Program-made: the position numbers and the translations under genes | Source: Phyllobacterium myrsinacearum | GTDB taxonomy: Bacteria; Pseudomonadota; Alphaproteobacteria; Rhizobiales; Rhizobiaceae | Direction of reading: 5' to 3' | DNA length: 64,000 nucleotides | Assembly (NCBI RefSeq): GCF_002980555.1 | Contig: NZ_PVBT01000001.1 | Location: 124,001 to 188,000 of the forward strand | Part shown: in pieces, positions 2,818-22,009 of the stretch | Layout: the number at the start of each line of letters is the position of its first letter | How positions within the stretch are numbered: position 1 is the stretch's first letter | The notes under the pieces: model-generated | What the model saw: only the letters and a program-made list of their open reading frames with translations | Databases searched by the model: none | What the model was told of the DNA's origin: nothing

Positions 2818-2993
2818 CTCTCCCCTTGAGGGAGAGAACGGATTTTCTTGGATTTAGCCTCTTTGCTAAATCCTTAGAAAATCCAAGTGAGGGGATTAAT
2901 CCGCCTCATCATACTTGCCCCCTCTCTTGCGATTTCTGGCACTTAGCAAGGGCTAAGTGCCAGAAATCGCTTTCTCCCCCGCAAGGGGGGAGA
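2818..2993. repeat. Mosaic of palindromes (RIME/BIME-like intergenic element)
   Basis: Four inverted repeats stand one after another between gbcB and the end of purU. They are CTCTCCC/GGGAGAG (2818-2836); a two-part stem GATTTTC + GGATTTAGC with its complements (2841-2883); a perfect 19-bp stem at 2929-2947/2952-2970 with loop AAGG, whose core is TTTCTGGCACTTAGC; and TCTCCCCC/GGGGGAGA (2973-2993). TGGCACTTA also occurs at 2809, ahead of the first hairpin. This layout resembles the rhizobial intergenic mosaic elements. It probably also ends transcription from both convergent operons. Copy number elsewhere cannot be seen here. Confidence 0.75.
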
Positions 2994-3016
2994 TAGACAG
3001 GGCTCAATTCCCCTGC

Positions 3017-3913
3017 CTAAAACACCACGGTCTTGTGGCCGTTGAGCATGACGCGGGATTCAAGGTGCTTCTTGACGGCGCGGGCGAGCACCCGGCTCTC
3101 GATGTCGCGGCCGGTGGCAACGAAATCCTCCGCGCTCATGGCATGGCTGACCCGCTCGGTCTCCTGCTCGATGATCGGGCCCTCGTCGAGATCGGGCGTG
3201 ACATAATGCGCCGTCGCCCCGATCAGCTTCACCCCGCGCTCGAACGCCTGGTGATAGGGCTTTGCCCCCTTGAAGCTCGGCAGGAAGGAGTGGTGGATGT
3301 TGATCACCTTGCCGAACAGCCGCTTGGACAGGGTGTCCGACAGCACCTGCATGTAGCGGGCGAGGATGACGAGATCGGCGCCGGTGTCCTTGACGATCTT
3401 CAGCAGCGCCTCCTCCTGCGCCGTCTTGTTGTCCTTGGACACGGGCAGCACATGGTAGGGGATGCCCTCATGCTCGGCAAAGCGGCGGCTGTCCTCGTGG
3501 TTGGAGACGATGGCGGCGACCTCGGCATCGAGCCAGCCGACCTTGATCTGGTAGATCAGGTGCAACAGCGCATGGTCGAACTTCGACACCATGATGACGA
3601 TCTTCGGCTTCTTGGCCTGGTCGATGAGCGTGGTCTTCATGCCGAAGCGCTCGATGGCGGGCTTCAAGGCCCGCTCGACATCGTCCTTGGCGGTTTCTTC
3701 CGAGGCGGCAAAGGCAATGCGCATGAAGAAGCGGTTGGTCTGGCGGTCCCAGAACTGGTTGCTCTCGGCGATATTGGCATCCAGCCCCGCAAGCTCCGTC
3801 GTCACCGATGCCACGATCCCCGGCTTGTCTTCGCACGACAGGGTGAGGACGAAGCCGTGCGTATAGCCGGAGGACTGACGGGTAACGGGCGGGGTGGGGG
3901 ACTGATGATCCAT
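3017..3913 (-). CDS. purU: Formyltetrahydrofolate deformylase
   Basis: Hydrolyses 10-formyl-THF to formate and THF, keeping the folate pool balanced (298 aa, usual length). An N-terminal ACT domain (about residues 12-95, starting YTHGFVLTLSCEDKPGIVASV) is followed by a formyltransferase-like domain with VSKFDHALLHL, the catalytic-region motif INIHHSFLPSF and the late DEGPIIEQ with its aspartate. It is the last gene of a five-gene operon, four bases after the PanB-like gene. Start 3913 is in line with PurU proteins; the open frame runs on upstream but overlaps the previous gene. In this setting it probably disposes of one-carbon units generated by demethylation. Confidence 0.93.
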   Translation of the reverse strand: MDHQSPTPPVTRQSSGYTHGFVLTLSCEDKPGIVASVTTELAGLDANIAESNQFWDRQTNRFFMRIAFAASEETAKDDVERALKPAIERFGMKTTLIDQAKKPKIVIMVSKFDHALLHLIYQIKVGWLDAEVAAIVSNHEDSRRFAEHEGIPYHVLPVSKDNKTAQEEALLKIVKDTGADLVILARYMQVLSDTLSKRLFGKVINIHHSFLPSFKGAKPYHQAFERGVKLIGATAHYVTPDLDEGPIIEQETERVSHAMSAEDFVATGRDIESRVLARAVKKHLESRVMLNGHKTVVF

Positions 3914-3917
3914 CGGT

Positions 3918-4715
3918 TCAAACTCCAGGAAGCTCTTTGAGAAAACGGTCCAGTTCGTCATGCGCAATTCCAACCACATGTTCGGCTGCCGGATAGTTTT
4001 TTGCGTGCACGTCTGCGACAAACTCGGAAAAGGCTGCGACCCTTTCCTGCTGCAGGCGGTCATATTCGGCGGAAAAGTTGCGGTAGGTTTTGGCATGGCG
4101 CGGATAGTGGCCGCGGTTCGATCCAAGAATATCCTCGGCGAAAAGATATTGGGCGTCGCAACCGGCGCCAGCGCCCATGGAGATCATGAACAGGGACGTC
4201 CGCCCGGAAATGGCCGTGGCAACCGCCACCGGCACCACCTCGATTTCGGCGGCAAAGGCCCCGGCCTCTTCCAATGCCTTGGTCTGGCGCCAGATATCGA
4301 GCGCGCTTTGCGCCGTCTTGCCGACAGCTTTGAAGCCGCCGGTCCAGGTCGCCTGTGACGGGATCAGACCGACATGGCCGCAGACCGGAATGCCTTCATC
4401 GCGCATGCGCCGGACGGTTGACAGGCTGGCGGCGCAATAGACCGCATCGCCGCCTGCGCGCAGCGCGGCAAAGGCAGCGCGCAGGTAATCCTCTGCCGTG
4501 ACGAAATCGCCGTATTCAAGGCCGGGAATGGCAAAGCAGGATGGCGCCGCATCGCGGAAGGCGGGCGAGAGCAGCGCCGGCGGCACGGACAGCATATCGA
4601 CCCGCGCCCTTTCGGCGGCTTCCGCCTCCTCAAGCGTTTCGACCCGCAGCATGGTCAGCTGGCGGCGGCCCTTCATTGCGAGAATGTCCGCCACCGTGGG
4701 GCGTTTGCTGGTCAT
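3918..4715 (-). CDS. PanB-family (ketopantoate hydroxymethyltransferase-like) protein, divergent
   Basis: A 265-aa TIM-barrel protein of the PanB superfamily. The shared parts are the GHVGLIPSQATWTGGFKAVG block, like HLGLTPQ...GGYKVQG of PanB, then IEVVPVAVA, aligned with the E-V-P of the catalytic glutamate, and ISMGAGAGCDAQ, like IGIGAG. The N-terminal metal-binding GDSLG of true PanB is replaced by SVPPALL in RVDMLSVPPALLS, so one metal/substrate-binding aspartate is missing. True PanB transfers a hydroxymethyl group from 5,10-methylene-THF to 2-oxoisovalerate. This paralogue sits between a demethylase and purU, and no panC is present, so a different acceptor or another folate-linked C1 role is more likely than pantothenate synthesis. 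Function is inferred. Confidence 0.72.
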   Translation of the reverse strand: MTSKRPTVADILAMKGRRQLTMLRVETLEEAEAAERARVDMLSVPPALLSPAFRDAAPSCFAIPGLEYGDFVTAEDYLRAAFAALRAGGDAVYCAASLSTVRRMRDEGIPVCGHVGLIPSQATWTGGFKAVGKTAQSALDIWRQTKALEEAGAFAAEIEVVPVAVATAISGRTSLFMISMGAGAGCDAQYLFAEDILGSNRGHYPRHAKTYRNFSAEYDRLQQERVAAFSEFVADVHAKNYPAAEHVVGIAHDELDRFLKELPGV

Positions 4716-4731
4716 GGTGTCTCCGTCCGTT

Positions 4732-5964
4732 TCAGGCTGCGAGCAGCGATTTGAGTTTGACGTCCGGGGCAGCAAGACCGGCCGGATCGGGACAGGCACT
4801 GCGGGCAATCAGCATTTCCGCCAGCCTCATATCCCGGGCGATGCTGTTGCCGCGACCAATGCCGCTCGCGGCAACGAGGCGCCCGTCCGCCGCGAGGTGG
4901 AACAGGATGAACGCGCTCTCATCGAGATCGCGGCGGATGGTTTGGCTCGCCTCGTCGGCAAGCCCGGCCACCTGCAATCCCAGCTCATATTGATCGGACC
5001 AGAACCACGGAACGGCGCGATGCGGTTCCAAAAGCCCAAGCATGTTGCGGGCGGCGAGCGTGCCCTGTTCCTGCGCATTGCGCCACGCTTCCAGCCGCAC
5101 CCGCCGCCCGCCATAGAGGGCAAGTGGAAAGGCGCAGCAATCGCCCGCGGCAAAAATATCCGGGTCACTCGTCTGCAGATACGCATTGACGAGGATGCCA
5201 TTGGCGGTTTCAAGCCCGGCTGCCTCGGCGAGGGCCGTTGCCGGTATTGCGCCGATGCCGATGACGGCGAGGTCCGCCTCAAGCTTTTCACCACCGGCAA
5301 GCGTCATGGTGACGCCGGTGTCCCGGTCGGTGATCGCTGCAATGGCAATGCCGTAGCGGATGAGGACACCTTCCTGCCGGTGACGTTCCGCGATGACCGC
5401 GGCGATTTCCTCGGATACGCCGCGCATCAGAATCCGCGCCTGGGTTTCAAGCACGGTCACTGCGGCGCCGCGCTGGCGCGCGCTGGCCGCCAGTTCAAGC
5501 CCGATAAAGCCGCCGCCGACAATGACAATGCGCGCGCCCGACTGCAGGCGCGCCCGGATGGCCAGCGCATCGTCATAGCTGCGCAGATAGGTGCAATGCC
5601 TGCTTTGCGCCGCCAGCGGCAGCGGGCGGGGTACGGCACCCGTCGCGAGCAGCAGCTTGTCATAGGCGAGGCGATCGCCACCTGCAAAGATGATTTCTTT
5701 GGCTTTCCGGTCTATTCCAATGGCGGCCGTGCCGCCAAGGAAGCGGATATCCTGCTCGGCGAACCGGTCATTCCCGGCGATGGTTCTGGCAAGGGGGTGT
5801 TCCGGCGACGTCATCACGTCCTTGGACAGGGGCGGACGTTCGTAGGGAAGGTGCTTTTCCGCACCGATCAGCGTGACCGGCCCGTCATAGCCGTTCTCGC
5901 GCAAGGCGAAGGCGGCGCGGGCACCGCATTCGCCGCCGCCGACGATGACCATACCGGCGGCCAT
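4732..5964 (-). CDS. mocF: FAD-dependent ferredoxin reductase, MocF-like
   Basis: Pyridine-nucleotide-dependent flavoprotein (410 aa) of the ferredoxin-reductase type used by oxygenases. The FAD Rossmann motif VIVGGGECGARAA is at residues 5-17, YERPPLSKDVM near 47, and the NAD-binding motif IVIVGGGFIGLELAA near 145; GDCCAFP near 275 marks the second FAD-contact strand. The ATG at 5964 is two bases after the stop of the Rieske ferredoxin gene, so the pair is translated together. In rhizopine loci MocF, MocE and MocD form a three-component O-demethylase. The moc name rests on this context; sequence alone gives ferredoxin reductase. Confidence 0.78.
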   Translation of the reverse strand: MAAGMVIVGGGECGARAAFALRENGYDGPVTLIGAEKHLPYERPPLSKDVMTSPEHPLARTIAGNDRFAEQDIRFLGGTAAIGIDRKAKEIIFAGGDRLAYDKLLLATGAVPRPLPLAAQSRHCTYLRSYDDALAIRARLQSGARIVIVGGGFIGLELAASARQRGAAVTVLETQARILMRGVSEEIAAVIAERHRQEGVLIRYGIAIAAITDRDTGVTMTLAGGEKLEADLAVIGIGAIPATALAEAAGLETANGILVNAYLQTSDPDIFAAGDCCAFPLALYGGRRVRLEAWRNAQEQGTLAARNMLGLLEPHRAVPWFWSDQYELGLQVAGLADEASQTIRRDLDESAFILFHLAADGRLVAASGIGRGNSIARDMRLAEMLIARSACPDPAGLAAPDVKLKSLLAA

Positions 5965-5966
5965 CG

Positions 5967-6284
5967 TCAGGAAGCCAGCTGGATGAGGACCTTGCCGGCC
6001 TCGACTTTCACCGGATAGGTCTTCAGGTTGACGCAGACCGGCGCACCCTTGGCCTGGCCGGTCTTGTAGTTGAACCGGCCATTGTGCTTGGGGCACTCGA
6101 TGATGTCGTCCATGACCAGCCCGTCAGCCAGATGGATATGTTCGTGGGTGCAAAGCCCGTCTGTTGCGAAGAATTCGTCATCGGGGCTGCGATAGATCGC
6201 AAACGTCCGGCCTTCATGATCGAAACGCATGACATCCTCCTCATCGATAGCATCGGCCGTGCAGGCTTCAATCCAGTCGCTCAT
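5967..6284 (-). CDS. mocE: Rieske [2Fe-2S] ferredoxin, MocE-like
   Basis: A 105-aa soluble Rieske ferredoxin. Cluster ligands are C45-x-H47 (CTHEH) and C64-x2-H67 (CPKH), followed by NGRFNYKTGQAKGAP, the usual form in naphthalene-dioxygenase-type ferredoxins. The start at 6284 has an excellent AAGGGAGGAAAG upstream, which decides against the start seven codons earlier. It carries electrons between the reductase encoded two bases downstream and the membrane desaturase-type oxygenase encoded upstream. Length and neighbours match MocE of rhizopine catabolism. Confidence 0.82.
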   Translation of the reverse strand: MSDWIEACTADAIDEEDVMRFDHEGRTFAIYRSPDDEFFATDGLCTHEHIHLADGLVMDDIIECPKHNGRFNYKTGQAKGAPVCVNLKTYPVKVEAGKVLIQLAS

Positions 6285-6359
6285 GGTCTTTCCTCCCTTT
6301 GGCAAGAGCTGCGCAGGCCCTGCTCACTGGTCTTATTCGTAAGCCTGTTCTTACCAATT

Positions 6360-7454
6360 CTATTCCGCTGCGGCGCGGGCATCCTCGCCGTGGAATTCCT
6401 CGCGGTAGGGTTTCGCCGTCAGCGGCAATTCGCGCCTGAGGTAATAGTCTTCGTTGCGCAACTGGCGCAGAAAGGCGGGGATCATCTCGCGGTAGCCGTC
6501 GAGGATGGACGGATTGGGTGCGGGCAGGTCATGCCTGATCATGGCGTGCAGGCGCGGCAGCGCGTGGTAGGGCACCATGGGGAACATGTGATGCTCGACA
6601 TGATAATTCATGTTCCAGTAGATGAAGCGGCTGACAGGGTTCATCAGCACCGTGCGGCTGTTGAGCCGGTGATCGATGACATTGTCGGCAAGCCCGCCAT
6701 GCTGGAGCAAGCCGGTCAGGACATGGTGCCACGCGCCGTACAGACGGGGCAGGCCGACCAGCATCAGCGGCAGGAGCGAGCCGGTATAAACAGCAAGGGC
6801 GATGACAACGGCATAGATTGCGAGCCAGATGCGGGCGAAGCGCACGGCCTTGTGCTGCTCCTGCGCGGGAATGAAGCTCTTTTCCCCGGCGCTGACAAAC
6901 CCGGCGGCATTGCGCAACATATCCGCAACCGCATGCCAGACATCGAGAATGCCGAAGACATTCAGGATGAGGCGGACGAGATCAGGCGGACGCATGACGG
7001 CAATCTCCGGATCGCGGCCAACAATGACCGTGTCGGTGTGGTGACGCGCATGGCTCCAGCGCCACGTCACCGGATTGCGCATGATCATGAAGCAGGCGAT
7101 CTGATAGACCGCATCGTTCATCCAGCGGGTCTTGAAGGCGGTGCCGTGGCCGCATTCGTGCCAGCGCGAATCCGAGGCGGAGCCGTAGAGCACGCCATAG
7201 GCGAGAAAGACGGGGATGCACCAGACCGTGCCCCAAAGCAGAATGCCCAGCCCGGCAAGGACAACCATGCTGCCGAGCCAGATCGCCGTGTCGCGTATGG
7301 CAGGCCCGTCCTCGCGCTTCATCAGCTCCTTCATCGCCTTGCGCGGCACATCGGTGTGATACCATTCGGCGGCTGCCAACCCGGTCTCCACGGCGCGCTG
7401 TGAATCGCGGCCAACGAGGCTGTAATCGCGTGATGCCGGCAATGCTGCGTCCAT
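6360..7454 (-). CDS. mocD: Membrane fatty-acid-desaturase-type oxygenase, MocD-like
   Basis: Integral membrane di-iron oxygenase (364 aa). The three histidine boxes are HECGH at 99-103, HARHH at 135-139 and HVEHH at 285-289, with hydrophobic segments near 58-90 and 205-240. The start at 7454 has GGGAGGT upstream. It heads the operon mocD-mocE-mocF-panB*-purU, 75 bases before mocE. MocD of rhizobia, with MocE and MocF, removes the O-methyl group of 3-O-methyl-scyllo-inosamine. The neighbouring inositol genes make O-demethylation of a methylated cyclitol the best guess; lipid desaturation is the alternative, but no lipid genes are close. Confidence 0.76.
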   Translation of the reverse strand: MDAALPASRDYSLVGRDSQRAVETGLAAAEWYHTDVPRKAMKELMKREDGPAIRDTAIWLGSMVVLAGLGILLWGTVWCIPVFLAYGVLYGSASDSRWHECGHGTAFKTRWMNDAVYQIACFMIMRNPVTWRWSHARHHTDTVIVGRDPEIAVMRPPDLVRLILNVFGILDVWHAVADMLRNAAGFVSAGEKSFIPAQEQHKAVRFARIWLAIYAVVIALAVYTGSLLPLMLVGLPRLYGAWHHVLTGLLQHGGLADNVIDHRLNSRTVLMNPVSRFIYWNMNYHVEHHMFPMVPYHALPRLHAMIRHDLPAPNPSILDGYREMIPAFLRQLRNEDYYLRRELPLTAKPYREEFHGEDARAAAE

Positions 7455-7570: not shown

Positions 7571-7608
7571 ATCATTGAATGATACGGTTTCATGATAGAA
7601 TCTATCAT
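7571..7608. promoter_or_regulatory. Cluster of dyads between mocD and lacI-type gene (putative operators)
   Basis: Three overlapping inverted repeats lie just before the regulator gene: ATCATTGAATGAT (7571-7583), the LacI-like ATGATACGGTTTCAT (7579-7593 region, 12 of 15 positions symmetric around the centre), and a perfect 17-mer ATGATAGAATCTATCAT (7592-7608). The last ends three bases before the GAGG ribosome-binding site, so binding there could block the regulator's own expression. A site for the adjacent LacI-family protein is the natural reading. Not tested. Confidence 0.6.
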
Positions 7609-7618: not shown

Positions 7619-8650
7619 ATGGCCAACAGACCGACAATTGCCGATCTTGCCCGGGTTTCCGGGGTCAGCGTGGCGACGGTGGACCGCGTGCTCAACAACC
7701 GCCTGCCCGTGCGCGAGGAAACGGCGCGGCGCGTCTATGACGCCGCCAACAGCATCGGCTATCACGCGGCGGGGCTGATCCGCCAGCGCATGCGGCAGGA
7801 ACTGCCGGAATACAGGCTTGGTTTTCTCCTGCAGAAATCTGGCCAGCATTTCTACCAGGATTTCGCCCGGGAAATCGATCAGGCGGTGCATGCGGCGCCG
7901 CATTTCCGCGGCGTGCCCGTTGTCGATTTCTGTCCGTCGCTGGCACCGGAGGATATCATCGTCAAGCTGCGGTCTCTGGCCGGGCGCACGCAGTCGGTCG
8001 CACTCGTCGCGCCCGATCATCCGTCGATCACCGCCGTGATCGAAGACCTGAAGGCGAGGGGCATTGCCGTTTTCTCCCTGTTGTCCGATTTTGCCGCCGG
8101 TGTGCGCGAGGGCTATGTCGGCCTGAACAACCGCAAGGCGGGGCGCACGGCGGCATGGATGATCGCCAAAACGGCGCGCCGTCCGGGCAAGGTGGCGATC
8201 TTTGTCGGCAGTCACCGGTTTCAGGGGCATGAGCTGCGGGAAATCGGCTTCCGCTCGTTTTTCCGCGAAGAAGCGCCCGAGTTTACCGTGCTTGATACGC
8301 TGATCAATCTGGAGACACGGCAGATCACGCACGAGGCGATGCTCAACCTTCTGAAACACCATCCGGATCTGGCGGGGTGTTATGTCGCCGGCGGCGGCAT
8401 GGAAGGGGCGATCGCAGCCCTGCGCGAGAGCATTCTGCCGGAACCGCCGGTGATGATCTGCAATGAAATCACGCCGGAATCGCGCGCGGCGCTGGCCGAT
8501 AAGGTCGTCACGATGGCCATTGCCACCCCGCTGCCGCGTCTCTGCCGCGAACTGGTGGAGCTGATGGGCCATGTCATCGAAACCGGCGCAGCCAACACGC
8601 CGGGGCAAACCTTTCTGCCCTTCGATATTTATCTGCCTGAAAACATCTGA
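7619..8650 (+). CDS. LacI-family transcriptional regulator
   Basis: A 343-aa repressor-type protein. The N-terminal helix-turn-helix reads TIADLARVSGVSVATVDRVLN, followed by the hinge and a periplasmic-binding-protein-like effector domain (YRLGFLLQK to the end). Start 7619 is preferred over 7592 because GAGG lies five bases upstream and LacI proteins start just before the HTH; the 7592 start would lie inside the perfect dyad. It is divergent from mocDEF-panB*-purU and upstream of the IolI-like gene, with dyads at both promoters, so it probably controls both. The inducer is unknown; a cyclitol or methyl-cyclitol is the context-based guess. Confidence 0.85.
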   Translation: MANRPTIADLARVSGVSVATVDRVLNNRLPVREETARRVYDAANSIGYHAAGLIRQRMRQELPEYRLGFLLQKSGQHFYQDFAREIDQAVHAAPHFRGVPVVDFCPSLAPEDIIVKLRSLAGRTQSVALVAPDHPSITAVIEDLKARGIAVFSLLSDFAAGVREGYVGLNNRKAGRTAAWMIAKTARRPGKVAIFVGSHRFQGHELREIGFRSFFREEAPEFTVLDTLINLETRQITHEAMLNLLKHHPDLAGCYVAGGGMEGAIAALRESILPEPPVMICNEITPESRAALADKVVTMAIATPLPRLCRELVELMGHVIETGAANTPGQTFLPFDIYLPENI

Positions 8651-8775: not shown

Positions 8776-9603
8776 ATGAGCGCGACGCGTTCCGCACCGG
8801 TTTTTGCAATCAATCATATGGTCACACCGGCATTGCGGCCGCAGGCATTTTTCGAACTGGCGCGCGCCATCGGTGTGCGGGACGTGGAAATCCGCAATGA
8901 TCTTACCGGCAACGCCATCATCGACGGAACGCCTGCGGCGGATATTGGCGCGCAGGCGGCGGCAGCCGGGGTGAAGATCGCGACGATCAATGCGTTGCAG
9001 CGCTTCAATGAATGGACGCCCGAGCGCGAAAAGGAAGCCATTGAACTCGCCGATTATGCGAGGGATGCGGGAGCGGCGGCTCTCGTTCTGGTGCCGGTCA
9101 ATGACGGGACCGGCCAGGAGGATGGTGCGCGGCAGGCCAATCTGCGTGCGGCGCTGACAGCGCTCAAGCCGATCCTGACGGCGCGGGGGCTTTTTGGATT
9201 TGTCGAACCGCTCGGCTTCGAAATCTGTTCATTGCGCTCAAAACGCGAAGCGGTGGAGGCCATCGAAGCGGTTGGCGGGGAGGACACGTTCCGCATCGTC
9301 CATGATACGTTTCATCACCATCTCGCCGGGGAACCGGCGCTCTTTCCGCAATGGACCGGGCTGGTGCACATCTCTGGTGTCACCGATGCCGCTGTCTCGT
9401 TAAGCGACATGCGCGATTCGCATCGTGTCCTCGTCGATGGGCAGGATCGCCTCGGCAATACAGCGCAGATCCGGGCCTTGCTTGCCGGTGGTTATGCCGG
9501 TGTGTTTTCGTTTGAACCCTTCGCCGAGGAAGTGCAGCAGCACGACGATCCGGCAGGGGCTTTGTCGCAGAGTATTGCGCTGATCAAATCCCAGCTGGCC
9601 TGA
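8776..9603 (+). CDS. Sugar-phosphate isomerase/epimerase-type TIM barrel, IolI-like
   Basis: A 275-aa AP-endonuclease-2-type TIM barrel. Segments matching 2-keto-myo-inositol isomerase IolI are ATINALQRFN (IolI: ALNALVFFN), FVEPLGFEIC with its metal glutamate, VHDTFHHHLAGE (IolI: LDSFHFHAMG), VHISGVTD and GVFSFEPFAEEV. The expected metal ligands (two Glu, one Asp, His) are present. IolI interconverts inosose isomers, which would let the pathway accept D-chiro- or scyllo-inositol. It lies between the LacI gene and the inositol ABC transporter; the terminator at 9623 makes it the end of a transcript. MocC-type inosose dehydratase is the alternative, less likely because iolE is also present. Confidence 0.68.
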   Translation: MSATRSAPVFAINHMVTPALRPQAFFELARAIGVRDVEIRNDLTGNAIIDGTPAADIGAQAAAAGVKIATINALQRFNEWTPEREKEAIELADYARDAGAAALVLVPVNDGTGQEDGARQANLRAALTALKPILTARGLFGFVEPLGFEICSLRSKREAVEAIEAVGGEDTFRIVHDTFHHHLAGEPALFPQWTGLVHISGVTDAAVSLSDMRDSHRVLVDGQDRLGNTAQIRALLAGGYAGVFSFEPFAEEVQQHDDPAGALSQSIALIKSQLA

Positions 9604-9904: not shown

Positions 9905-10055
9905 GTATGACAAGTCCAGAAAAGTTTGCGCGGCGTTTCGCGCACTCTAGGGGCAGAGGCATCGCTGGCAGCAGGGGTTGCATGGCCACGATGCCGATGT
10001 TTGCGGAGCTTCCGGATCAGGACGGTGTGGCCGGGCACCATGTGGAGGAGACGAA

Positions 10056-10985
10056 ATGAAAAAACTGATATTGAGCGTGGCTGTTGCAGCCTTGATGAGC
10101 ACGTCGGCATTGGCCGCCAATATTGGCGTGTCGATGGCGCAGTTCGACGACAACTTCCTGACGGTCCTGCGCAATGGCATGCAGGACTATGCCAAGACGC
10201 TGGATGGCGTGAAGCTGCAGGTGGAAGACGCGCAGAACGACGTTGCCAAGCAGCAGAGCCAGATCCAGAACTTTATCGCCTCGAAGGTCGATGCCATCAT
10301 CGTCAACGCGGTGGATACGGACGCGACAGCCGCCATGTCGAAGCTGGCGACGGCTGCGGGCATTCCGCTGGTCTATGTCAACCGTGAACCGGTCAACGTC
10401 AACGAACTGCCGGCAAAACAGGCCTTTGTTGCATCCAACGAAGTCGAGTCCGGCACGCTGGAAACCAAGGAAGTCTGCAAGCTTCTGAAGGGCAAGGGCA
10501 AAATCGTCGTCATGATGGGTGAATTGTCCAACCAGGCAGCACGCCAGCGGACGAAGGACATTCATGACGTGATCGCCACGGATGAATGCAAGGGCCTTAC
10601 CATCGTCGAGGAGCAGACCGCCAACTGGTCGCGCACCCAGGGTGCCGACCTCATGACGAACTGGCTCTCCGCCGGTCTGGAATTCGATGCCGTCATTTCC
10701 AACAATGACGAAATGGCCATCGGCGCGATCCAGGCCCTCAAGGCTGCCGGACGCAAGATGGATACGGTTGTCGTGGCCGGCGTTGACGCCACACAGGATG
10801 CGCTTGCTGCCATGGCCGCCGGTGATCTCGACGTGACCGTGTTCCAGAATGCCGCCGGTCAGGGCAAGGGTGCGGTCGATGCCGCTCTGAAGCTGTCGAA
10901 GGGCGAAAAGGTTGAGACCAAGGTCTATATTCCTTTCGAGTTGGTGACGCCGGACAATCTGTCGAAGTACCAGTCCAAGAACTAA
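10056..10985 (+). CDS. ibpA: Inositol-type sugar ABC transporter, periplasmic binding protein
   Basis: A 309-aa periplasmic binding protein of the ribose/inositol class. Residues 1-20 are a signal peptide ending STSALA-A; the mature part opens with NIGVSMAQFDDNF and carries the typical DAIIVNAVDTDA and SNNDEMAIGAIQALK segments. GGAGGAG precedes the ATG by five bases. It is the first gene of ibpA-iatA-iatP-idhA and the IolR-like boxes are 150 bases upstream. A hairpin after its stop probably raises its level over that of the membrane parts. The symbols follow the Caulobacter/Sinorhizobium inositol transporter; MocB of rhizopine loci is the same family and remains possible. Confidence 0.82.
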   Translation: MKKLILSVAVAALMSTSALAANIGVSMAQFDDNFLTVLRNGMQDYAKTLDGVKLQVEDAQNDVAKQQSQIQNFIASKVDAIIVNAVDTDATAAMSKLATAAGIPLVYVNREPVNVNELPAKQAFVASNEVESGTLETKEVCKLLKGKGKIVVMMGELSNQAARQRTKDIHDVIATDECKGLTIVEEQTANWSRTQGADLMTNWLSAGLEFDAVISNNDEMAIGAIQALKAAGRKMDTVVVAGVDATQDALAAMAAGDLDVTVFQNAAGQGKGAVDAALKLSKGEKVETKVYIPFELVTPDNLSKYQSKN

Positions 10986-11001
10986 GGCGCCGCGCCTTGC
11001 A

Positions 11002-11029
11002 CCGGACCGCGCTTTTGGGCGCGTTCCGG
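11002..11029 (+). terminator. Intra-operon attenuating hairpin
   Basis: CCGGACCGCGC pairs with GCGCGTTCCGG with one mismatch around TTTTGG, followed by CCTTTGCT without a strong T-run. It lies between the binding-protein gene and the ATPase gene, where such hairpins protect or limit transcripts to favour the binding protein. Confidence 0.6.
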
Positions 11030-11060
11030 CCTTTGCTCAATGTCTCGGGAGGAGACGACT

Positions 11061-12602
11061 ATGGCAGTCAGCCCAACAACGATGGCTGCGGTTCGCGCCA
11101 GTGGTGCGGTGCCGAAGGCCGAATATCTCTTGAATGTTGAAGGTATCCGCAAGGAGTTTCCCGGCGTCCTGGCGCTGGACGATGTGTCGTTTCGCCTGAA
11201 GCGCGGGACAGTGCATGCGCTGATGGGCGAAAACGGTGCCGGCAAATCCACGCTGATGAAGATCCTGGCTGGAATATATGTTCCAGATCAGGGCGAGGTT
11301 TTCCTGAAGGGGCTGCCGATCCGGCTGAAATCGCCGCTCGATGCGCTGGAAAACGGCATTGCCATGATCCATCAGGAGCTGAACCTGATGCCTTTCATGA
11401 CGGTGGCCGAGAATATCTGGATCCGGCGCGAGCCGAAAAACATGTTCGGCTTTGTCGATCACGGCAAGATGTTTGCAATGACGGCCGAGCTGTTCAAGCG
11501 GCTGAACATCGCGCTTGATCCGGAAGCGCAGGTGCGGGATCTCAGCGTCGCCAACCGGCAGATGGTGGAGATCGCCAAGGCGGTCTCCTACGAATCCGAT
11601 GTGCTGATCATGGATGAGCCGACCTCGGCGCTGACCGAGCGCGAGGTGGCGCATCTGTTCGAGATCATCCGCAGCCTGCGCAGCCAGGGCATCGGCATCG
11701 TCTACATCACCCACAAGATGAACGAGCTGTTCGAGATCGCCGACGAATTCTCCGTTTTCCGCGATGGCCGTTATATCGGCACGCATGCATCCACCGACGT
11801 GACGCGCGACGACATCATCAAGATGATGGTCGGGCGCGAGATCACCCAGATGTTCCCGAAGGAGACAGTGCCGATCGGCGAGGTCGTGCTCTCGGTGAAA
11901 GACCTTGCGCTGAAGAATGTGTTCAGCGGTGTTTCCTTCGATGTGCGGGCGGGCGAAATTCTCGGTATTGCCGGGCTGGTCGGGTCGGGACGTTCCAATG
12001 TTGCCGAAACCATATTCGGCGTGACACCCGCCACGACGGGTTCGATTGCCGTCAACGGCAAGCCGGTTGCCATCGCTTCGCCGAACCAGGCGATCCAGCA
12101 TGGCATGGCCTTCATCACGGAAGACCGCAAGGAAACCGGCTGCCTGCTCATTCTCGACGTTCTGGAGAACATGCAGATCGCCGTGCTGCAGGACCGGTTC
12201 GTCACATTCGGCTTTGTTTCGGAAAAGGGTATTGCCGCGGCCTGCAAGGTGATGAGCGACAAGCTGCGGGTGAAGACGCCCAATCTGCAGGAGCGGGTCG
12301 AAAATCTTTCCGGCGGCAACCAGCAGAAGGTGCTGATCGGCCGCTGGCTTTTGACCAATCCGAAAATTCTCATTCTCGATGAACCGACGCGCGGCATCGA
12401 TGTTGGCGCCAAGGCGGAAATCCACCGCCTCGTTTCCGAACTCGCCAAGCAGGGCGTTGCCGTCATCATGATCTCGTCGGAAATGCCCGAGGTTCTCGGC
12501 ATGAGCGACCGCATCATGGTGATGCATGAGGGCCGCGTCACCGGTTTCCTGGATCGGGAAGAGGCAACCCAGGTAAAAGTCATGGAGCTGGCTTCCAAGT
12601 GA
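11061..12602 (+). CDS. iatA: Inositol-type sugar ABC transporter, ATP-binding protein
   Basis: A 513-aa double ATPase of the RbsA/MglA class energising sugar import. The first cassette has Walker [10 protein letters not shown] at 56-64 and Walker [12 protein letters not shown]; the second has the degenerate GLVGSGRSN in place of Walker A, the signature LSGGNQQK and [15 protein letters not shown] degenerate second Walker A is normal for this class. Start 11061 follows GGGAGGAGACGACT; the longer frame from 11040 has no such site. It is followed by the permease gene after 28 bases. Confidence 0.9.
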
Positions 12603-12630
12603 AGCCGCTGCCGGACGGGGAGGAACAACA

Positions 12631-13656
12631 ATGACAAGCGAACAAGCAACCGCGAAGGCAGCCGCACCGGCGATCTCGAAGCAGGGGCGGCGGCTGCCGC
12701 CCGAGGTCAGCATCCTCCTGGTCCTGATCGGCATCGCCCTGATCTATGAAGTGCTCGGCTGGATTTTCGTCGGGCAGAGCTTTCTGATGAACCAGCAGCG
12801 CCTGACCATCATCATCCTGCAGGTATCGGTCATCGGCATTATCGCCGTCGGCGTGACGCAGGTCATCATCACAGGCGGCATCGATCTGTCATCGGGCTCC
12901 GTCGTCGGCATGACGGCGATGATCGCCGCGAGTTTCGCGCAGGCCTCGACCTGGGCGAGGCCCGTTTATCCCGGCCTGACGGACCTGCCTTTCATCGTTC
13001 CATTGGCCATCGGTCTCGGAATCGGCCTGCTTGCCGGTATCGTCAATGGCGCGCTGATCGCGCAGACCAAGATTCCGCCGTTCATCGCGACGCTTGGCAT
13101 GATGGTGTCGGCGCGCGGCGTTGCCAAATGGTACACCAAGGGCTCGCCGGTTTCGGGGCTCACCGACCAGTTCAATTTCATCGGCACAGGCATCTGGCCG
13201 GTGGTGGTGTTCCTGGTCGTGGCCTTCATTTTCCACATCGCGCTGCGGTACACGCGCTACGGCAAATTCACCTATGCCATCGGCGCCAATGTGCAGGCGG
13301 CGCGCGTCTCCGGCATCAATGTCGAACGGCACCTGATCAAGGTCTATGCCATCGCCGGCGTGCTGGCCGGTCTTGCGGGTATCGTCACCGCGGCGCGTGC
13401 CCAGACGGCGCAGTCGGGCATGGGCGTGACCTATGAGCTGGATGCGATTGCGGCTGCCGTCATCGGCGGGACGTCGCTGACTGGCGGCGTCGGGCGCATC
13501 ACCGGCACGGTGATCGGCGCCATCATTCTCGGTGTGATGATTTCCGGGTTCACCTTCCTGCGGGTCGATGCCTATTACCAGGAAATCATTAAGGGCGTGA
13601 TTATCGTTGCGGCGGTCGTCGTGGACGTCTATCGCCAGAAGAAGAGAAAAGTCTGA
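12631..13656 (+). CDS. iatP: Inositol-type sugar ABC transporter, permease
   Basis: A 341-aa inner-membrane permease of the RbsC/AraH family with about nine or ten hydrophobic segments. Family marks are [20 protein letters not shown] near residue 75-94, [18 protein letters not shown] near 140 and [17 protein letters not shown] near 275. GGGGAGGAACAACA precedes the ATG. It completes a one-binding-protein, one-ATPase, one-permease importer. Substrate is judged from the neighbours and is most likely inositol or a close relative. Confidence 0.88.
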
Positions 13657-13670
13657 AACCAATCTGTAAT

Positions 13671-13696
13671 GCCCGGAACCCATCCGGGCTTCTTTC
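13671..13696 (+). terminator. Hairpin between iatP and idhA
   Basis: GCCCGG (13671-13676) pairs with CCGGGC (13684-13689) followed by TTCTTTCC. The stem is short, so some transcription into idhA is expected; it may only lower distal expression. Confidence 0.5.
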
Positions 13697-13710
13697 CAAG
13701 AGGTAATGAA

Positions 13711-14700
13711 ATGACTGTACGCTTTGGCCTGCTCGGTGCGGGCCGTATCGGCAAGGTTCACGCAAAGGCCGTGATGTCCAACCCGCAGGCGAAACTTGTA
13801 GCGGTGGCAGACGCGTTCGAACAGGCGGCAAAGGACCTTGCGGGCGCCTATGGCTGCGACATCCGCACCATCGATGAGATCGAAAAGGCCGGGGATATCG
13901 ATGCGGTCATCATCTGCACGCCAACTGATACACATGCGGATCTGATCGAGCGCTTTGCCCGCGCCGGCAAGGCGATTTTTTGCGAAAAGCCGATTGATCT
14001 CAATGTGAAGCGCGTCGAGGAATGCCTTGCCGTCGTCGATGAAACCAAGGCCGCCCTGATGGTCGGTTTCAACCGCCGCTTCGATCCGCATTTTGCCGCC
14101 GTGCGCAAAGCGATCGACGATGGCGCCATCGGTACGGTGGAAATGGTGACCATTACCTCGCGTGATCCGGGTGCGCCGCCCGCCGACTACATCACCCGTT
14201 CCGGTGGTATTTTCCGCGACATGACGATCCATGATTTCGACATGGCGCGCTTCCTGCTGGGCGAGGACCCGGTGGCCGTGACCGCTCATGCTTCGGTTCT
14301 GGTGGACAAGAAGATCGGTGAGCTCGGCGATTATGACAGTGTCAGCGTCATTCTCTCGACCGCCTCCGGCAAGCAGTGCGTCATCTCCAATTCGCGCCGC
14401 GCCACCTATGGCTATGACCAGCGCATCGAAGTGCATGGCTCCAAGGGCATGGTGGCGGCGGAGAACCAGCGTCCGGTGTCAATCGAAGTCGCCAATGGCA
14501 ATGGTTATACCCGTCCGCCGCTGCATGATTTCTTCATGACCCGCTACACGGAAGCCTATGCCAACGAGATCGCAGCTTTCATCGATGCGATTGCGACCGG
14601 CGCCAAGGCCGCGCCGAGCGGCAAGGATGGCCTGATCGCCCTGGCGCTGGCTGATGCTGCCCTGCGGTCGGTCAAGGAAGGCAAGACGATCAATCTCTAA
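13711..14700 (+). CDS. idhA: Inositol 2-dehydrogenase
   Basis: NAD-dependent dehydrogenase (329 aa) of the Gfo/Idh/MocA family that oxidises myo-inositol to scyllo-inosose, the first step of the iol pathway. The nucleotide motif FGLLGAGRIGKVHAKAV is at residues 4-20, and CEKPID near 92 supplies the conserved lysine. GFNRRFDPHF and the catalytic-region DMTIHDFDMARFLLG are as in rhizobial IdhA proteins. AAGAGGTAATGAA precedes the chosen ATG. A strong terminator follows the stop. Confidence 0.87.
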   Translation: MTVRFGLLGAGRIGKVHAKAVMSNPQAKLVAVADAFEQAAKDLAGAYGCDIRTIDEIEKAGDIDAVIICTPTDTHADLIERFARAGKAIFCEKPIDLNVKRVEECLAVVDETKAALMVGFNRRFDPHFAAVRKAIDDGAIGTVEMVTITSRDPGAPPADYITRSGGIFRDMTIHDFDMARFLLGEDPVAVTAHASVLVDKKIGELGDYDSVSVILSTASGKQCVISNSRRATYGYDQRIEVHGSKGMVAAENQRPVSIEVANGNGYTRPPLHDFFMTRYTEAYANEIAAFIDAIATGAKAAPSGKDGLIALALADAALRSVKEGKTINL

Positions 14701-15988: not shown

Positions 15989-16023
15989 GGAATAACTGAT
16001 CCGTTTTGCGGAATGGATTATTT
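15989..16023. promoter_or_regulatory. IolR-like boxes in the mocA-like/iolR divergent promoter
   Basis: GGAATAACTGATCC (15989-16002) and GGAATGGATTATTT (16010-16023) carry the GGAA half-site and a partial right half, 21 bases apart. The position between the dehydrogenase and iolR points to autoregulation. CGGAT/ATCCG also forms a dyad around the first box. Confidence 0.5.
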
Positions 16024-16070
16024 TGGTAGTCTCGCCATCCGTATCGCAAAACCAAGGGGAACGATTCGCA

Positions 16071-16913
16071 ATGGGCAGCACGGCCACAGAAGCAACTCTG
16101 CCGCAGGACTTCGATGCTTTGCGCACGCTGATCCTGGATCGCCGCCAGCTCCTGCCCAAGCGGCTGGCTCAGATCGCGGCCTATGCCCTCGGCAATCCCG
16201 ATGAAATCGCCTTCGGCACAGCGGCAAGCATTGCCCAGTCGGCCGGCGTGCAGCCCTCCACGCTTATCCGCTTTGCCCAGCATCTGGGTTTTGACGGGTT
16301 TACCAGCCTGCAATCCGTGTTCCGCGAGCGCCTGCGGGAACGCCAGGGCTCGTATGAAGAACGGCTGTCAGGCCTGCGCGGTGATACGCCCGGGCTTTCC
16401 AAGAACCGCGTCATTCTCAACGGTTTCCTGACGGCGGCCAGCCAATCCATCCAGACCATTTCCCGCAGTGCCGAGGAGGATGTGCTGGAGCGGGCGGTGG
16501 AGGTTTTGGCGCATGCGGACACGATCTATCTCATCGCCCGCCGCCGGTCCTATCCGATCTCCGCCTATATGGCCTATGCCTTTGGCAAACTGAAAATCCG
16601 CAATCAGCTGATTGAATCGACGGCCGGTATCGACCCGGAAATCCTGTCCTTTGCCCGGCCGCAGGATGCGGCCATTGCCATCAGCTTTTCGCCCTATGCC
16701 TCGGCAACAGTCGAGCATGCGGCAGCGCTGGCAGCGCGCGGCGTGCCTGTCGTTGCCATTACCGACAGCGCATTTTCCCCGCTGGCACAATCGGCCAGCG
16801 TCTGGTTCGAGGCGGCGGAAGGAGATTTCTCCGGTTTCCGGTCTCTCTCCGGGACAATGGCGCTCGCCATGGCGTTGACGGTCAGCGTGGCGGAACGGCG
16901 CCGCAGCCTGTAA
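16071..16913 (+). CDS. iolR: MurR/RpiR-family regulator of inositol catabolism
   Basis: A 280-aa regulator. The N-terminal RpiR helix-turn-helix covers ASIAQSAGVQPSTLIRFAQHLG (about residues 62-83) and the C-terminal part is a SIS sugar-isomerase fold (about 125-265, with IYLIARRRSYPISAYMAY). Rhizobial IolR is of this family and represses iol genes until inosose-derived intermediates appear. AAGGGGA lies ten bases ahead of the ATG at 16071; the TTG at 16023 lies within an operator-like box. It is directly upstream of iolC, separated by a promoter with two IolR-like boxes. Confidence 0.85.
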   Translation: MGSTATEATLPQDFDALRTLILDRRQLLPKRLAQIAAYALGNPDEIAFGTAASIAQSAGVQPSTLIRFAQHLGFDGFTSLQSVFRERLRERQGSYEERLSGLRGDTPGLSKNRVILNGFLTAASQSIQTISRSAEEDVLERAVEVLAHADTIYLIARRRSYPISAYMAYAFGKLKIRNQLIESTAGIDPEILSFARPQDAAIAISFSPYASATVEHAAALAARGVPVVAITDSAFSPLAQSASVWFEAAEGDFSGFRSLSGTMALAMALTVSVAERRRSL

Positions 16914-16944
16914 CAGCGCCAAATGAAATACGGGAAATCTAAAA

Positions 16945-16988
16945 AGAATATACATTCCATATTGACGATTTGATAGAATTATTATTTC
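16945..16988. promoter_or_regulatory. Twin IolR-like boxes upstream of iolC
   Basis: AGAATATACATTCC (16945-16958) and AGAATTATTATTTC (16975-16988) fit [AG]GAA-N6-TT[TC]C and start exactly 30 bases apart. GGGAAAT near 16932 and ATTCCCG near 16999 frame them symmetrically. The region is markedly AT-rich, as expected of the iolCDEB promoter. Confidence 0.68.
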
Positions 16989-17048
16989 ATATGCAAAAAT
17001 TCCCGGCCTGTTTTCAGCGGGATGGATCAGCATATCGGGAGGATCGTC

Positions 17049-18980
17049 ATGGGCAGCGCTGCAACAGGCAAAAAGCTTGATGTCATCACAATTGGCCGCT
17101 CGTCGGTGGATCTCTACGGCCAGCAGATCGGCTCCCGCCTCGAGGACATCGCATCCTTCGCCAAATCCGTTGGCGGCTGCCCGGCCAATATCGCCATCGG
17201 CACCGCTCGTCTCGGGCTGCGCTCAGCGCTTTTGAGCCGCGTCGGCGACGAGCAGATGGGCCGTTTCATCCGCGAGCAGATGCTGCGCGAAGGCGTGGCG
17301 GTCGATGGTGTCATCACCGATGCGGAACGGCTGTCGGCGCTGGTCATCCTGTCGGTTGAGAACGACAAGAGCTTTCCGCTGATTTTCTACCGCGAGAACT
17401 GCGCCGATATGGCGCTGAACGAGGACGACGTCGATCCGCAGTTCATCCGCTCGGCCCGCGCCGTGGTCGTCACCGGCACGCATTTTTCAAAACCCAATAC
17501 CGATGCCGCCCAGCGCAAGGCGATCCGCCTGATCAAGGAAGCGGGCGGCAAGGTGGTGTTCGACATCGACTACCGGCCGAACCTCTGGGGACTCGCCGGT
17601 CACGGGGCCGGCGACAGCCGCTATATCGCCTCCGATGCCGTATCGAGCCATTTGAAGACAGTGCTGGCCGACTGCGACCTGATCGTCGGCACGGAAGAGG
17701 AAGTGCTGATCGCCTCCGGTGAAGCTGATCTGCTCGCCGCTTTGAAGACCATCCGGGCGCTTTCCGCCCATGCGACCATCGTGCTCAAGCGCGGGCCGAT
17801 GGGCTGTATCGTCTATGAGGGCGCCATATCGGACGATCTTGAAGACGGCATTGTCGGCAAGGGATTTCCCATCGAGGTGTTCAATGTGCTGGGCGCGGGC
17901 GACGCCTTCATGTCCGGTTTCCTGCGCGGCTGGCTCGGCGGCGAAAGTCTTGCCACGGCGGCGACCTGGGCCAATGCCTGCGGCGCCTTTGCGGTATCGC
18001 GTCTCCTGTGTTCGCCGGAAATCCCGACATTCGAAGAGCTGCAATTCTTCCTTGAACACGGCAGCCCGCAGCATGCCCTGCGCAAGGACGAGGCGATCAA
18101 TCACGTGCACTGGGCAACCACGCGCCGCCATGACATCCCTTCCATGATGGCCTTTGCCATTGACCATCGCGTGCAGTTTGAGGACCTTTCCAAAAGGCTT
18201 GGCGCGGATATCGGCCGGGTGCAGGTATTCAAGGAACTGGCCGTCAAGGCCGCCGCGCTGGTTGCGGATGGCCGTAGCGGTTATGGCATGCTGCTCGATG
18301 AAAAGTTCGGGCGCGAGGCGATGTTCGAATTTGCCCGGCACAATTTCGACTGGCTCGGCCGCCCGGTCGAACTGCCGGGTTCGCGCCCGCTGCGTTTTGA
18401 ATTCTCGCAGGATATCGGGTCACAGCTGGCGGAATGGCCGGTAGATCATTGCATCAAATGCCTGTGCTTCTATCACCCGGACGATCCGGCCGACCTGAAG
18501 GCGGAGCAGCAGGCGAAGCTGCGCACCCTGTTCGAAGCGGCGCGCAAGGTCGGGCGTGAACTGCTGATCGAGATCATTGCCGGCAAGCACGGGGTGCTCG
18601 ACGACATGACCATTCCGCGGGCGCTAGAAGAGCTTTATGCGCTTGGCATCAAGCCCGATTGGTGGAAGCTCGAGCCGCAGGCTTCTGCCGCCACATGGAA
18701 GAAGATCGAGGCGGTGATCGAAAAGAACGATCCGTGGTGCCGCGGTGTCGTCCTGCTCGGGCTGGAAGCGCCGCAGGATGAGCTGGAAGCAGCGTTCGCT
18801 GCCACCGCCAACGCCCCTGTCGTCAAAGGCTTTGCCGTTGGCCGCACCATTTTCATGGACGCCGCCGAACAATGGCTGGCGGGGAAGATATCCGATGAGG
18901 CGGCCATTGCCGATATGGCCGATCGTTTCGAAAAATTGACCAGGGCGTGGCTTGCCAGCCGCAAGCAACAAGCGGCATAG
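17049..18980 (+). CDS. iolC: 5-dehydro-2-deoxygluconokinase fused to DUF2090 aldolase-like domain
   Basis: A 643-aa fusion. Residues 1-330 are a PfkB-type kinase (GGCPANIA at 42-49; NVLGAGDAFMSGF with the catalytic aspartate near 285) that phosphorylates 5-dehydro-2-deoxygluconate. Residues about 335-640 form a DUF2090 TIM-barrel domain (FAIDHRVQFEDL, GRSGYGMLLDEKFG, KPDWWKLEP) thought to cleave the phosphorylated product to DHAP and malonate semialdehyde, replacing IolJ. Such fusions are common in proteobacteria. GGGAGGA lies before the ATG at 17049. First gene of iolC-iolD-iolE-orf-iolB. Confidence 0.92.
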   Translation: MGSAATGKKLDVITIGRSSVDLYGQQIGSRLEDIASFAKSVGGCPANIAIGTARLGLRSALLSRVGDEQMGRFIREQMLREGVAVDGVITDAERLSALVILSVENDKSFPLIFYRENCADMALNEDDVDPQFIRSARAVVVTGTHFSKPNTDAAQRKAIRLIKEAGGKVVFDIDYRPNLWGLAGHGAGDSRYIASDAVSSHLKTVLADCDLIVGTEEEVLIASGEADLLAALKTIRALSAHATIVLKRGPMGCIVYEGAISDDLEDGIVGKGFPIEVFNVLGAGDAFMSGFLRGWLGGESLATAATWANACGAFAVSRLLCSPEIPTFEELQFFLEHGSPQHALRKDEAINHVHWATTRRHDIPSMMAFAIDHRVQFEDLSKRLGADIGRVQVFKELAVKAAALVADGRSGYGMLLDEKFGREAMFEFARHNFDWLGRPVELPGSRPLRFEFSQDIGSQLAEWPVDHCIKCLCFYHPDDPADLKAEQQAKLRTLFEAARKVGRELLIEIIAGKHGVLDDMTIPRALEELYALGIKPDWWKLEPQASAATWKKIEAVIEKNDPWCRGVVLLGLEAPQDELEAAFAATANAPVVKGFAVGRTIFMDAAEQWLAGKISDEAAIADMADRFEKLTRAWLASRKQQAA

Positions 18981-19003
18981 CATCAGGCCGGGAGGAGATT
19001 GAC

Positions 19004-20854: not shown

Positions 20855-20902
20855 CACGATTTGTAGCTGAACCACGCACACAACAACTGAAGGAAGACAA
20901 GA

Positions 20903-21787
20903 ATGATCCGTATCGGGGCGAACCCAATCGGCTGGTCCAATGACGACATGCTGGAAATCGGTGGAGACATCCCGCTGGAAACCTGTCTGGAACAGGCGAA
21001 GGCGGCCGGGTTCACTGGCATGGAGCTGGGCAACAAGTTTCCGCGCACGGCGGACAAGCTGCGCCCGATCCTCGATGCGTTCGGCCATGACCTCGTCAGC
21101 GGCTGGTACTCGACCGAACTGCTCGTGCGCGATGTCGACGCCGAACTGAAGGCTGTTGTCGGCCACGCTACCCTCTTGAAGGAGATGGGCTGCAAAGTCC
21201 TCATCGCCGCCGAAACATCAAACGCGATCCACTCCAACAAGGAGGTGCCGCTGTCGGCCCGTCCGGTTCTGGAAAAGGCTGCGTGGGCCGAGTTCGGCAA
21301 GCGCTATACGGCCTTCGCCGAAGCGGTGAAACAGACCTATGGCCTGCAGGTGGTCTATCATCACCATATGGGCACCGTGGTGCAGACCGAGGCCGAGATC
21401 GACCGGTTCATGCAGGTGACGGGCGATGCTGTGCATCTGCTGCTCGACACCGGCCATGCCACCTGGGGCGGCGGCGATCCCGCACGTCTTGCCCGCCATC
21501 ACAAGGCGCGCATCAGCCATGTGCATTGCAAGGATATCCGCGAGGCCGTCATGTGGCAGTCCAACCGCGAAGACTGGTCCTTCCTCGATTCCGTCCTTGC
21601 CGGCGTTTACACGGTTCCCGGCGACGGCATGATCGACTATGTTCGTGTCCTCAAGGAACTCCAGGGCTATAGCGGCTGGGTGGTTGTCGAGGCAGAGCAG
21701 GACCCTGTGAAGGCTGATCCAGCCGTCTATTCCAAGCTTGGCCACGCCAATCTCAGCCGCTTCATCAAAGAGGCAGGATTGGTTTGA
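20903..21787 (+). CDS. iolE: 2-keto-myo-inositol (inosose) dehydratase
   Basis: TIM-barrel enzyme (294 aa) that dehydrates scyllo-inosose to the trihydroxycyclohexane-dione that IolD opens. IolE marks are the N-terminal IGANPIGWSNDDM, YHHHMGTVVQTEAEIDRF, the metal-binding LLLDTGHATWGG and HVHCKDIR, and GWVVVEAEQDP. GAAGGAAGACAAG precedes the ATG. The stop codon overlaps a TTG start of the next small gene, so translation is coupled. Confidence 0.94.
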   Translation: MIRIGANPIGWSNDDMLEIGGDIPLETCLEQAKAAGFTGMELGNKFPRTADKLRPILDAFGHDLVSGWYSTELLVRDVDAELKAVVGHATLLKEMGCKVLIAAETSNAIHSNKEVPLSARPVLEKAAWAEFGKRYTAFAEAVKQTYGLQVVYHHHMGTVVQTEAEIDRFMQVTGDAVHLLLDTGHATWGGGDPARLARHHKARISHVHCKDIREAVMWQSNREDWSFLDSVLAGVYTVPGDGMIDYVRVLKELQGYSGWVVVEAEQDPVKADPAVYSKLGHANLSRFIKEAGLV

Positions 21788-22005: not shown

Positions 22006-22009
22006 GACC

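Follow-up and report, generated by a model that had tools for sequence, protein, structure and literature searches.

The window analysed here is a 64,000-nucleotide stretch of the Phyllobacterium myrsinacearum genome (contig NZ_PVBT01000001.1, G000:C1:124001-188000 of a 5.4-Mb assembly) and carries a run of five genes on the minus strand, mocD-mocE-mocF-panBx-purU, in which a complete MocDEF oxygenase set is followed by a divergent PanB-like protein, termed PanBx, and by a deformylase of 10-formyl-tetrahydrofolate (10-formyl-THF), PurU. PanBx is, from its sequences, a coherent family that recurs beside oxygenases of three unrelated classes. The operon may represent a module that demethylates O-methylated cyclitols such as ononitol and pinitol oxidatively, in which PanBx would take the C1 unit to folate and PurU would return the folate, a reading whose probability we put a little under one half.

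The oxygenase set is made up of mocD (6360..7454), encoding a di-iron membrane oxygenase of the FA_desaturase type (PF00487, 120.5 bits, cut-off 29.7) with the histidine boxes HECGH, HARHH and HVEHH, which is the proposed O-demethylase; mocE (5967..6284), encoding a Rieske [2Fe-2S] ferredoxin above the cut-off of the 'MocE family' model TIGR02377 (188 bits, cut-off 136.15) with a C-x-H...C-x2-H motif; and mocF (4732..5964), encoding an FAD-dependent ferredoxin reductase with PF07992 Pyr_redox_2 and PF14759 Reductase_C domains. They are followed by panBx (3918..4715), encoding the PanB-fold protein proposed as C1 acceptor or transfer enzyme, with its closest named relatives in Phyllobacterium (84-96% identity), and by purU (3017..3913), whose product exceeds the TIGR00655 equivalog cut-off (332.1 bits, cut-off 285.95). 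The shared strand and the gaps of 75, 2, 16 and 4 bases agree exactly with the first-pass annotation of this DNA. We infer co-transcription of the five genes, the demethylation of a methylated cyclitol (from the iol neighbours and the moc clusters described below) and the fate of the C1 unit. A folate-binding GcvT-type domain, which we take to be a mark of demethylases of the MABO/sarcosine oxidase type, was found in none of the five operon proteins in a Pfam scan at E 1e-3.

PanBx beside three oxygenase classes

In total, 117 PanBx genes were fetched and grouped into 79 clusters at 90% identity, of which 71 had at least 11 kb of total flank; the eight with shorter flanks (L061, L073, L079, L084, L088, L127, L150 and L153) were left out, and L096 and L105 entered as partial PanBx matches. 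Most loci were gathered by a PanBx search and a few plasmid loci (such as L165-L168) by a MocD search. A candidate oxygenase, labelled by similarity to a few chosen examples, lies within 9 kb of PanBx in 65 of the 71 non-redundant loci, with MocD only in 48, FA_hydroxylase in 11, PhyH in 5, and both MocD and PhyH in one. These are three unrelated families, namely the MocD-type FA_desaturases (only 34-35% identical to MocD in two counted loci, L155 and L159), FA_hydroxylase (PF04116) and PhyH (PF05721), a dioxygenase of the 2-oxoglutarate/Fe(II) type. Among the loci counted without an oxygenase, L120 has MocD on the far side of the iol operon, about 14 kb off, L137 has MocE and MocF on a contig that ends 8 kb further on, and L158 has MocE 7.4 kb off, at the border of the fetched stretch. 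The five PhyH-only loci have a ribokinase and lack MocE and MocF within 9 kb; PanBx is therefore the component shared by all three oxygenase contexts.

In a PanBx tree of 70 labelled sequences, the three-way oxygenase label needs 8 changes and the FA_hydroxylase label 7 (supported branches force 6 of these), and PhyH forms a single clade, suggesting that MocD and FA_hydroxylase were swapped around PanBx several times and PhyH perhaps once, with gains and losses not distinguished. The first tree had given 18 changes, including 8 rows labelled 'none' and the outgroup, and was redone with the 70 labelled rows; L120 was set by hand as MocD in both trees and L131 as PhyH in the second, and the long branches of L127, L105, L107, L159 and L140 make some positions unsure.

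The accompanying sugar genes vary too: iol genes and IolG-like dehydrogenases accompany the MocD and FA_hydroxylase loci, and ribokinase plus RbsD, sometimes with a DeoC-like gene, accompany the PhyH loci. The loci thus have in common PanBx, an oxygenase and in most cases some sugar module, which argues that PanBx handles the product common to all, the C1 unit; this is the main argument for the reading. A role of PanBx on the sugar or cyclitol part instead, as an isomerase, lyase or hydrolase step, would suit its TIM barrel and its location mostly in sugar and cyclitol clusters, and the alcohol dehydrogenases (ADHs) beside a P450 sugar demethylase offer the precedent of a non-C1 role (PMC10033563). 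It is nevertheless unlikely, as PanBx is constant across iol, ribokinase/RbsD/DeoC-like and GH31-like modules, and separate isomerase-like TIM barrels are often already present in the loci.

Loci L128-L134 share a conserved run of PhyH, sugar ABC transporter, ribokinase, RbsD and PanBx (e.g., L132:7611-14990), with a DeoC-like gene also in L132-L134 and with MocE and MocF absent except in L131, and this run possibly serves the catabolism of an O-methylated pentose. A GH31-like glycosidase, recognized by reading of the sequence, stands beside the MocD/PanBx loci L139 (9456-11300) and L140 (10089-12209) and suggests a methylated glycoside as the substrate there.

A census across 151 genomes of the host's family, counting PanBx at E 1e-30 or better and MocD at 40% identity or more, placed PanBx in 35 genomes, MocD in 35, both in 30 and each alone in 5 (Fisher p 2e-21, to be taken only as a guide as the genomes are related). 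The census left out 20 MocD rows of 31-36% identity, with which MocD occurs in 44 genomes. Three of the five PanBx-only genomes have PhyH in the locus (L130, L132 and L133) and one has FA_hydroxylase (L123); in the fifth (G027, L141), where the PanBx match is only partial, no oxygenase was recognized. A scan of the genome collection gave 77 loci, two of which (L108 and L109, from metagenome-assembled genomes of Desulfocapsaceae and Desulfobulbaceae) keep the GDS motif and were excluded from the counts as true PanB. The remaining 75 comprise 61 with MocD of at least 40% identity, 10 with FA_hydroxylase in the locus, one with no oxygenase seen (L058), and three cut by contig ends (L060, L084 and L088). 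The first-pass annotation had tied both the PanB-like gene and purU to mocDEF; PanBx proved to be a near-constant oxygenase partner across genera, and purU proved to be optional. Nor is the pattern limited to mocDEF, as PanBx also lies beside FA_hydroxylase and PhyH oxygenases.

The PanBx protein and a proposed route of the C1 unit

PanBx is predicted to retain the PanB fold and passes the broad Pfam model PF02548 (135.4 bits, cut-off 28.7), covering profile positions 76-258 only, but it falls far under the NCBIfam PanB models PRK00311.1 (123.7 vs 272) and TIGR00222 (104.5 vs 207.55). The residues of the window protein aligned to Asp45, Asp84, Lys112 and Glu114 of Escherichia coli PanB, which we take to be the Mg2+ and 2-oxo-acid ligands, roles that the literature search did not confirm, are P46, G65, Y93 and A95. 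A segment of ~20 residues after GDS is absent from 55 of 56 aligned rows, the remaining row being a true PanB, and His136 and Glu181 of PanB are kept as His114 and Glu159. The loss of the presumed ligands makes PanB chemistry with 2-oxo acids unlikely and, together with the missing segment and the sub-cut-off scores, separates PanBx from PanB (1m3u, 3vav).

The polar residues H114, E149, E157, E159, D195, H207 and R225 are invariant in 44 rows, and E30, R54, D90, W124, K133 and T134 are kept in at least 90% of them, as in an active site. This conservation leaves very little chance that PanBx is a non-enzymatic partner of the oxygenase (scaffold, chaperone or formaldehyde buffer), a role for which the loss of the presumed catalytic ligands and the frequent position beside unrelated oxygenases could be invoked, and one contact shared across unrelated oxygenase folds is itself unlikely. 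The four substitutions and the loss of the post-GDS segment speak likewise against an aldolase that would join formaldehyde to a 2-oxo acid (e.g., pyruvate) in a direct PanB-type C1 assimilation; such an activity is improbable, albeit in line with the PanB fold and family and with the reported condensation of free formaldehyde and 3-methyl-2-oxobutanoate by some PanB variants (PMC7073904).

An ordinary PanB function in pantothenate synthesis was rejected as the main role, since PanBx misses the PanB cut-offs, the host encodes a separate true PanB (G000:C6), and PanBx is no commoner in genomes without true PanB. The true enzyme occurs about equally in PanBx genomes (20 of 35) and in the others (59 of 116), being missing at E 1e-60 from 15 and 57, respectively.

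In the O-demethylation reading, MocF would draw electrons from NAD(P)H and hand them via MocE to MocD, which would hydroxylate the O-methyl group to give R-O-CH2OH, a hemiacetal of formaldehyde. PanBx would transfer the hydroxymethyl group, or free formaldehyde, onto tetrahydrofolate (THF) to form 5,10-methylene-THF, followed by oxidation to 10-formyl-THF by FolD, encoded elsewhere in the genome (a single host match to PF02882, on another contig), and PurU would hydrolyze the latter to formate and THF, regenerating free folate. The leftover inositol would enter the neighbouring iol pathway. The sequences show the genes and how they are arranged, a palindrome upstream of mocD (below), the fold as predicted, the lost residues and the conserved association with three oxygenase families; every step given to PanBx is one that we infer.

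He et al. reported that formaldehyde and THF, left uncatalysed, condense far too slowly to support growth (PMC7073904), so an enzyme for this step would have a purpose. The authors also considered whether E. coli PanB might catalyse it promiscuously, and deletion of panB, which concerns the true PanB, made no difference in their strain (PMC7073904). Thiaville et al. described PanB as an enzyme that uses methylene-THF and may act on folate in a side reaction.

Tetrahydromethanopterin (H4MPT) is not favoured as the C1 acceptor. Fae (PF08714), which uses this cofactor, is absent from 28 of 35 PanBx genomes, and its presence in 7 of the 35, the host among them, compares with 18 of 116 others. The two host Fae matches lie at G000:C4:234489-234962 and G000:C2:302936-303391, and the genes beside them resemble, by reading of the sequence, methanopterin synthesis genes.

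Several observations weigh against a C1 role of PanBx within a demethylation module. A candidate oxygenase was not seen within the 9 kb searched in three of the 71 loci (L058, L126 and L156), and the PhyH loci, being one clade, may have acquired their association only once. At E 1e-30, PanBx is missing from 5 of the 35 MocD genomes, and MocD loci on plasmids of Paenibacillus, Caballeronia and Paraburkholderia (L169-L171) have no PanBx in the stretch; demethylation can therefore proceed without it. Most PanBx loci have no PurU, among them five of the 12 closest (L033-L044) and all counted PhyH loci. No residue marking a folate site was found in PanBx, and the two Fae genes give the host another formaldehyde route. 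In addition, the conserved ADHs beside the P450 6-O-methyl-galactose demethylase do not detoxify formaldehyde, one of them being needed for growth (PMC10033563), so conservation next to a sugar demethylase does not by itself imply a role on C1. The incomplete presence of PanBx and PurU and the Fae genes would also suit a view of panBx and purU as passengers of an ordinary mocDEF operon, with formaldehyde cleared by Fae/H4MPT or glutathione routes. This is very improbable, as the association of PanBx with MocD is far above chance and PanBx is kept through the 8 oxygenase-type changes on the tree and through different sugar modules.

In the plasmid locus L169 of Paenibacillus cellulosilyticus (9001-11789), MocD-MocE-MocF are encoded at 53-68% identity in a member of the Bacillota.

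PurU and the surroundings of the operon

In 17 of the 71 clusters PurU is encoded no more than 3 kb from PanBx, with purU on the opposite strand in one of them (L058), and a 9-kb limit gives 18; in the 77 loci of the genome-collection scan it was found in 29 at E 1e-10 and in 30 at E 1e-8. As no genome has more than five PurU-model matches among those listed, PurN-like proteins included, chance would put fewer than one near PanBx. In a tree of 55 PurU sequences, in which the window gene appears twice (W and L122) and 21 non-operon copies were picked by hand, the operon copies fall into several separate lineages, the operon/elsewhere label needing 12 changes, at least 7 of them forced by supported branches. 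Identity to the window PurU is only 51-54% for the operon PurU proteins of Sinorhizobium and beta-proteobacteria. Such repeated attachment of PurU argues for a working link with the operon.

The window PurU is 94.6% identical to a second host copy on G000:C3 (L121:5347-6201), which lies beside cobalamin-type genes by reading of the sequence. The PurU tree pairs these two host copies, and likewise L035 with L172, a pattern that gene conversion or repeated copying inside a genome could have left.

A LacI-family regulator (7619..8650, plus strand; PF00356 and PF13407) is encoded divergently from mocD, in an open reading frame that opens at 7592 with a likelier start at 7619. Between the two genes stands the palindrome TGATAGAATCTATCA (7593..7607), a proposed operator and the sole window match with three or fewer mismatches (0.59 expected by chance at that tolerance); no second perfect site exists genome-wide, and one further site has one mismatch. 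The pattern TGATAG(N2-4)TATCA was found in 30 of 60 lacI-mocD regions of relatives. With the divergent lacI and the near-unique palindrome, the run is probably served by a dedicated regulator and a single promoter region.

Downstream of lacI and on the same strand follow a sugar/inosose isomerase-like TIM barrel (8776..9603; PF01261, 89.4 bits), a sugar ABC transporter (10050..13656) and iolG for inositol 2-dehydrogenase (13669..14700; TIGR04380, 424.2 bits, cut-off 355). The transporter is composed of a binding protein (10050-10985), an ATPase (11040-12602) and a permease (12631-13656), whose best NCBIfam matches are of the RbsB/MglA/MglC type, none of these above cut-off. The iol operon proper (16023..22804, plus strand) encodes an RpiR-type regulator, iolC, iolD, iolE and iolB, with NF047869, TIGR04382, TIGR04377, TIGR04379 and TIGR04378 above their cut-offs, and the RpiR-type label rests on below-cut-off MurR/RpiR matches.

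Just 3' of purU lies a perfect inverted repeat with 19-bp arms (2929..2970; fold z -7.4 for 2880-3020), located between the convergent purU and a gbcB-like gene and lacking a T run, which may be a transcript end. Both arms are perfect, and one near copy of an arm occurs elsewhere in the genome. The convergent genes at 448-2791 encode a Rieske pair, a GbcA-like oxygenase and a GbcB-like reductase, which do not reach the glycine-betaine equivalog cut-offs (522.9/670 and 378.9/500), and fuconate-pathway-like genes lie upstream of this pair (L122; by reading of the sequence).

Rhizopine clusters and other known systems

The rhizopine 3-O-methyl-scyllo-inosamine is an O-methyl cyclitol, and the mocD promoter is rhizopine-inducible, with mocDEF forming one of four transcriptional units (PMC10107442); neither purU nor hydroxymethyltransferase occurs in the main text of that paper. 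The rhizopine clusters share with the window the MocD-MocE-MocF order and families, and PanBx and PurU come next on plasmids of Rhizobium indicum (L167), R. leguminosarum (L166) and Sinorhizobium meliloti KH46 (pSymA, L168). The five-gene order is annotated in L167 and was seen by tblastn in L166 and L168, where PanBx matches in two pieces and may be broken. The sugar-binding protein of the window is 75-78% identical to that in the three plasmid loci.

The window itself is not favoured as a rhizopine cluster, as it has a LacI regulator where moc clusters have MocR. It also differs from them in the iol operon next door. The L167 regulator passes the rhizopine MocR equivalog cut-off NF052281 (739 vs 650), and no match to this model was found among 19 window proteins (E 1e-3 and 1e-10; among the 25 best matches listed per protein). 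For the rhizopine binding protein model NF052284, the window protein scores 54.9 against a cut-off of 420, and the two binding proteins of L167 also stay below (no match and 138/420); the host genome has no match at 1e-60. Three genomes with a match above this cut-off (L161-L163) have no MocD or PanBx in the stretches around it.

Folate C1 genes dedicated to a demethylase are known from other operons. In purU-mabO-folD of pAO1, which serves nicotine N-demethylation, a demethylase is co-transcribed with folate C1 genes including PurU, but the N-demethylating oxidase makes methylene-THF itself, and no PanB-like gene is named for the operon (PMC3891541). The same review cites a part in nicotine catabolism for a panB of Pseudomonas putida J5 and accounts for it by way of pantothenate. 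The sarcosine oxidase operons glyA-soxBDAG-purU also combine demethylation with a co-located PurU, and differ in that N-demethylation is catalyzed and methylene-THF is released by the oxidase itself when THF is present (PMC3691474). Another known system is the P450 6-O-methyl-D-galactose demethylase of marine Flavobacteriia, an oxidative sugar O-demethylase that releases formaldehyde and has conserved auxiliary genes, although it is a P450 and its auxiliary ADH is not a formaldehyde enzyme (PMC10033563).

The first-pass annotation had taken the operon for an O-demethylase coupled to C1 salvage and had held such a unit to be undescribed. The interpretation gains from a tight run conserved across genera, from the adjacent iol genes and from the same order in rhizopine moc clusters, and it loses its PanB-type 2-oxo-acid chemistry, which is unlikely, and its dependence on purU, which is optional. 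The claim of novelty has to be narrowed in view of purU-mabO-folD and glyA-soxBDAG-purU; what appears undescribed is an O-demethylase-type oxygenase with a PanB-like partner, no description of which was found in the literature searched, which covers few subscription papers.

A new activity of PanBx is a distinct possibility. The task proposed for it, in which an enzyme would bind formaldehyde to a reduced pterin, is that of Fae, which belongs to another Pfam family (PF08714) and uses H4MPT (PMC7073904). It is conceivable, with the odds somewhat against it, that PanBx is the folate counterpart of Fae, handing to THF either formaldehyde or, ahead of any escape of formaldehyde, the hydroxymethyl group of the demethylase product. 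It would then be a portable module for methylated cyclitols and sugars that oxygenases of three unrelated classes share, and a so far overlooked component of rhizopine catabolism.

If PanBx does catalyze C1 transfer to THF, it would fill a gap so far treated as spontaneous chemistry and would offer a natural enzyme for synthetic formaldehyde assimilation. It would also complete the rhizopine pathway and explain how plant-associated bacteria could use methylated inositols. Even with another chemistry, a family that tracks three unrelated oxygenases provides a gene-context handle for finding sugar O-demethylases.

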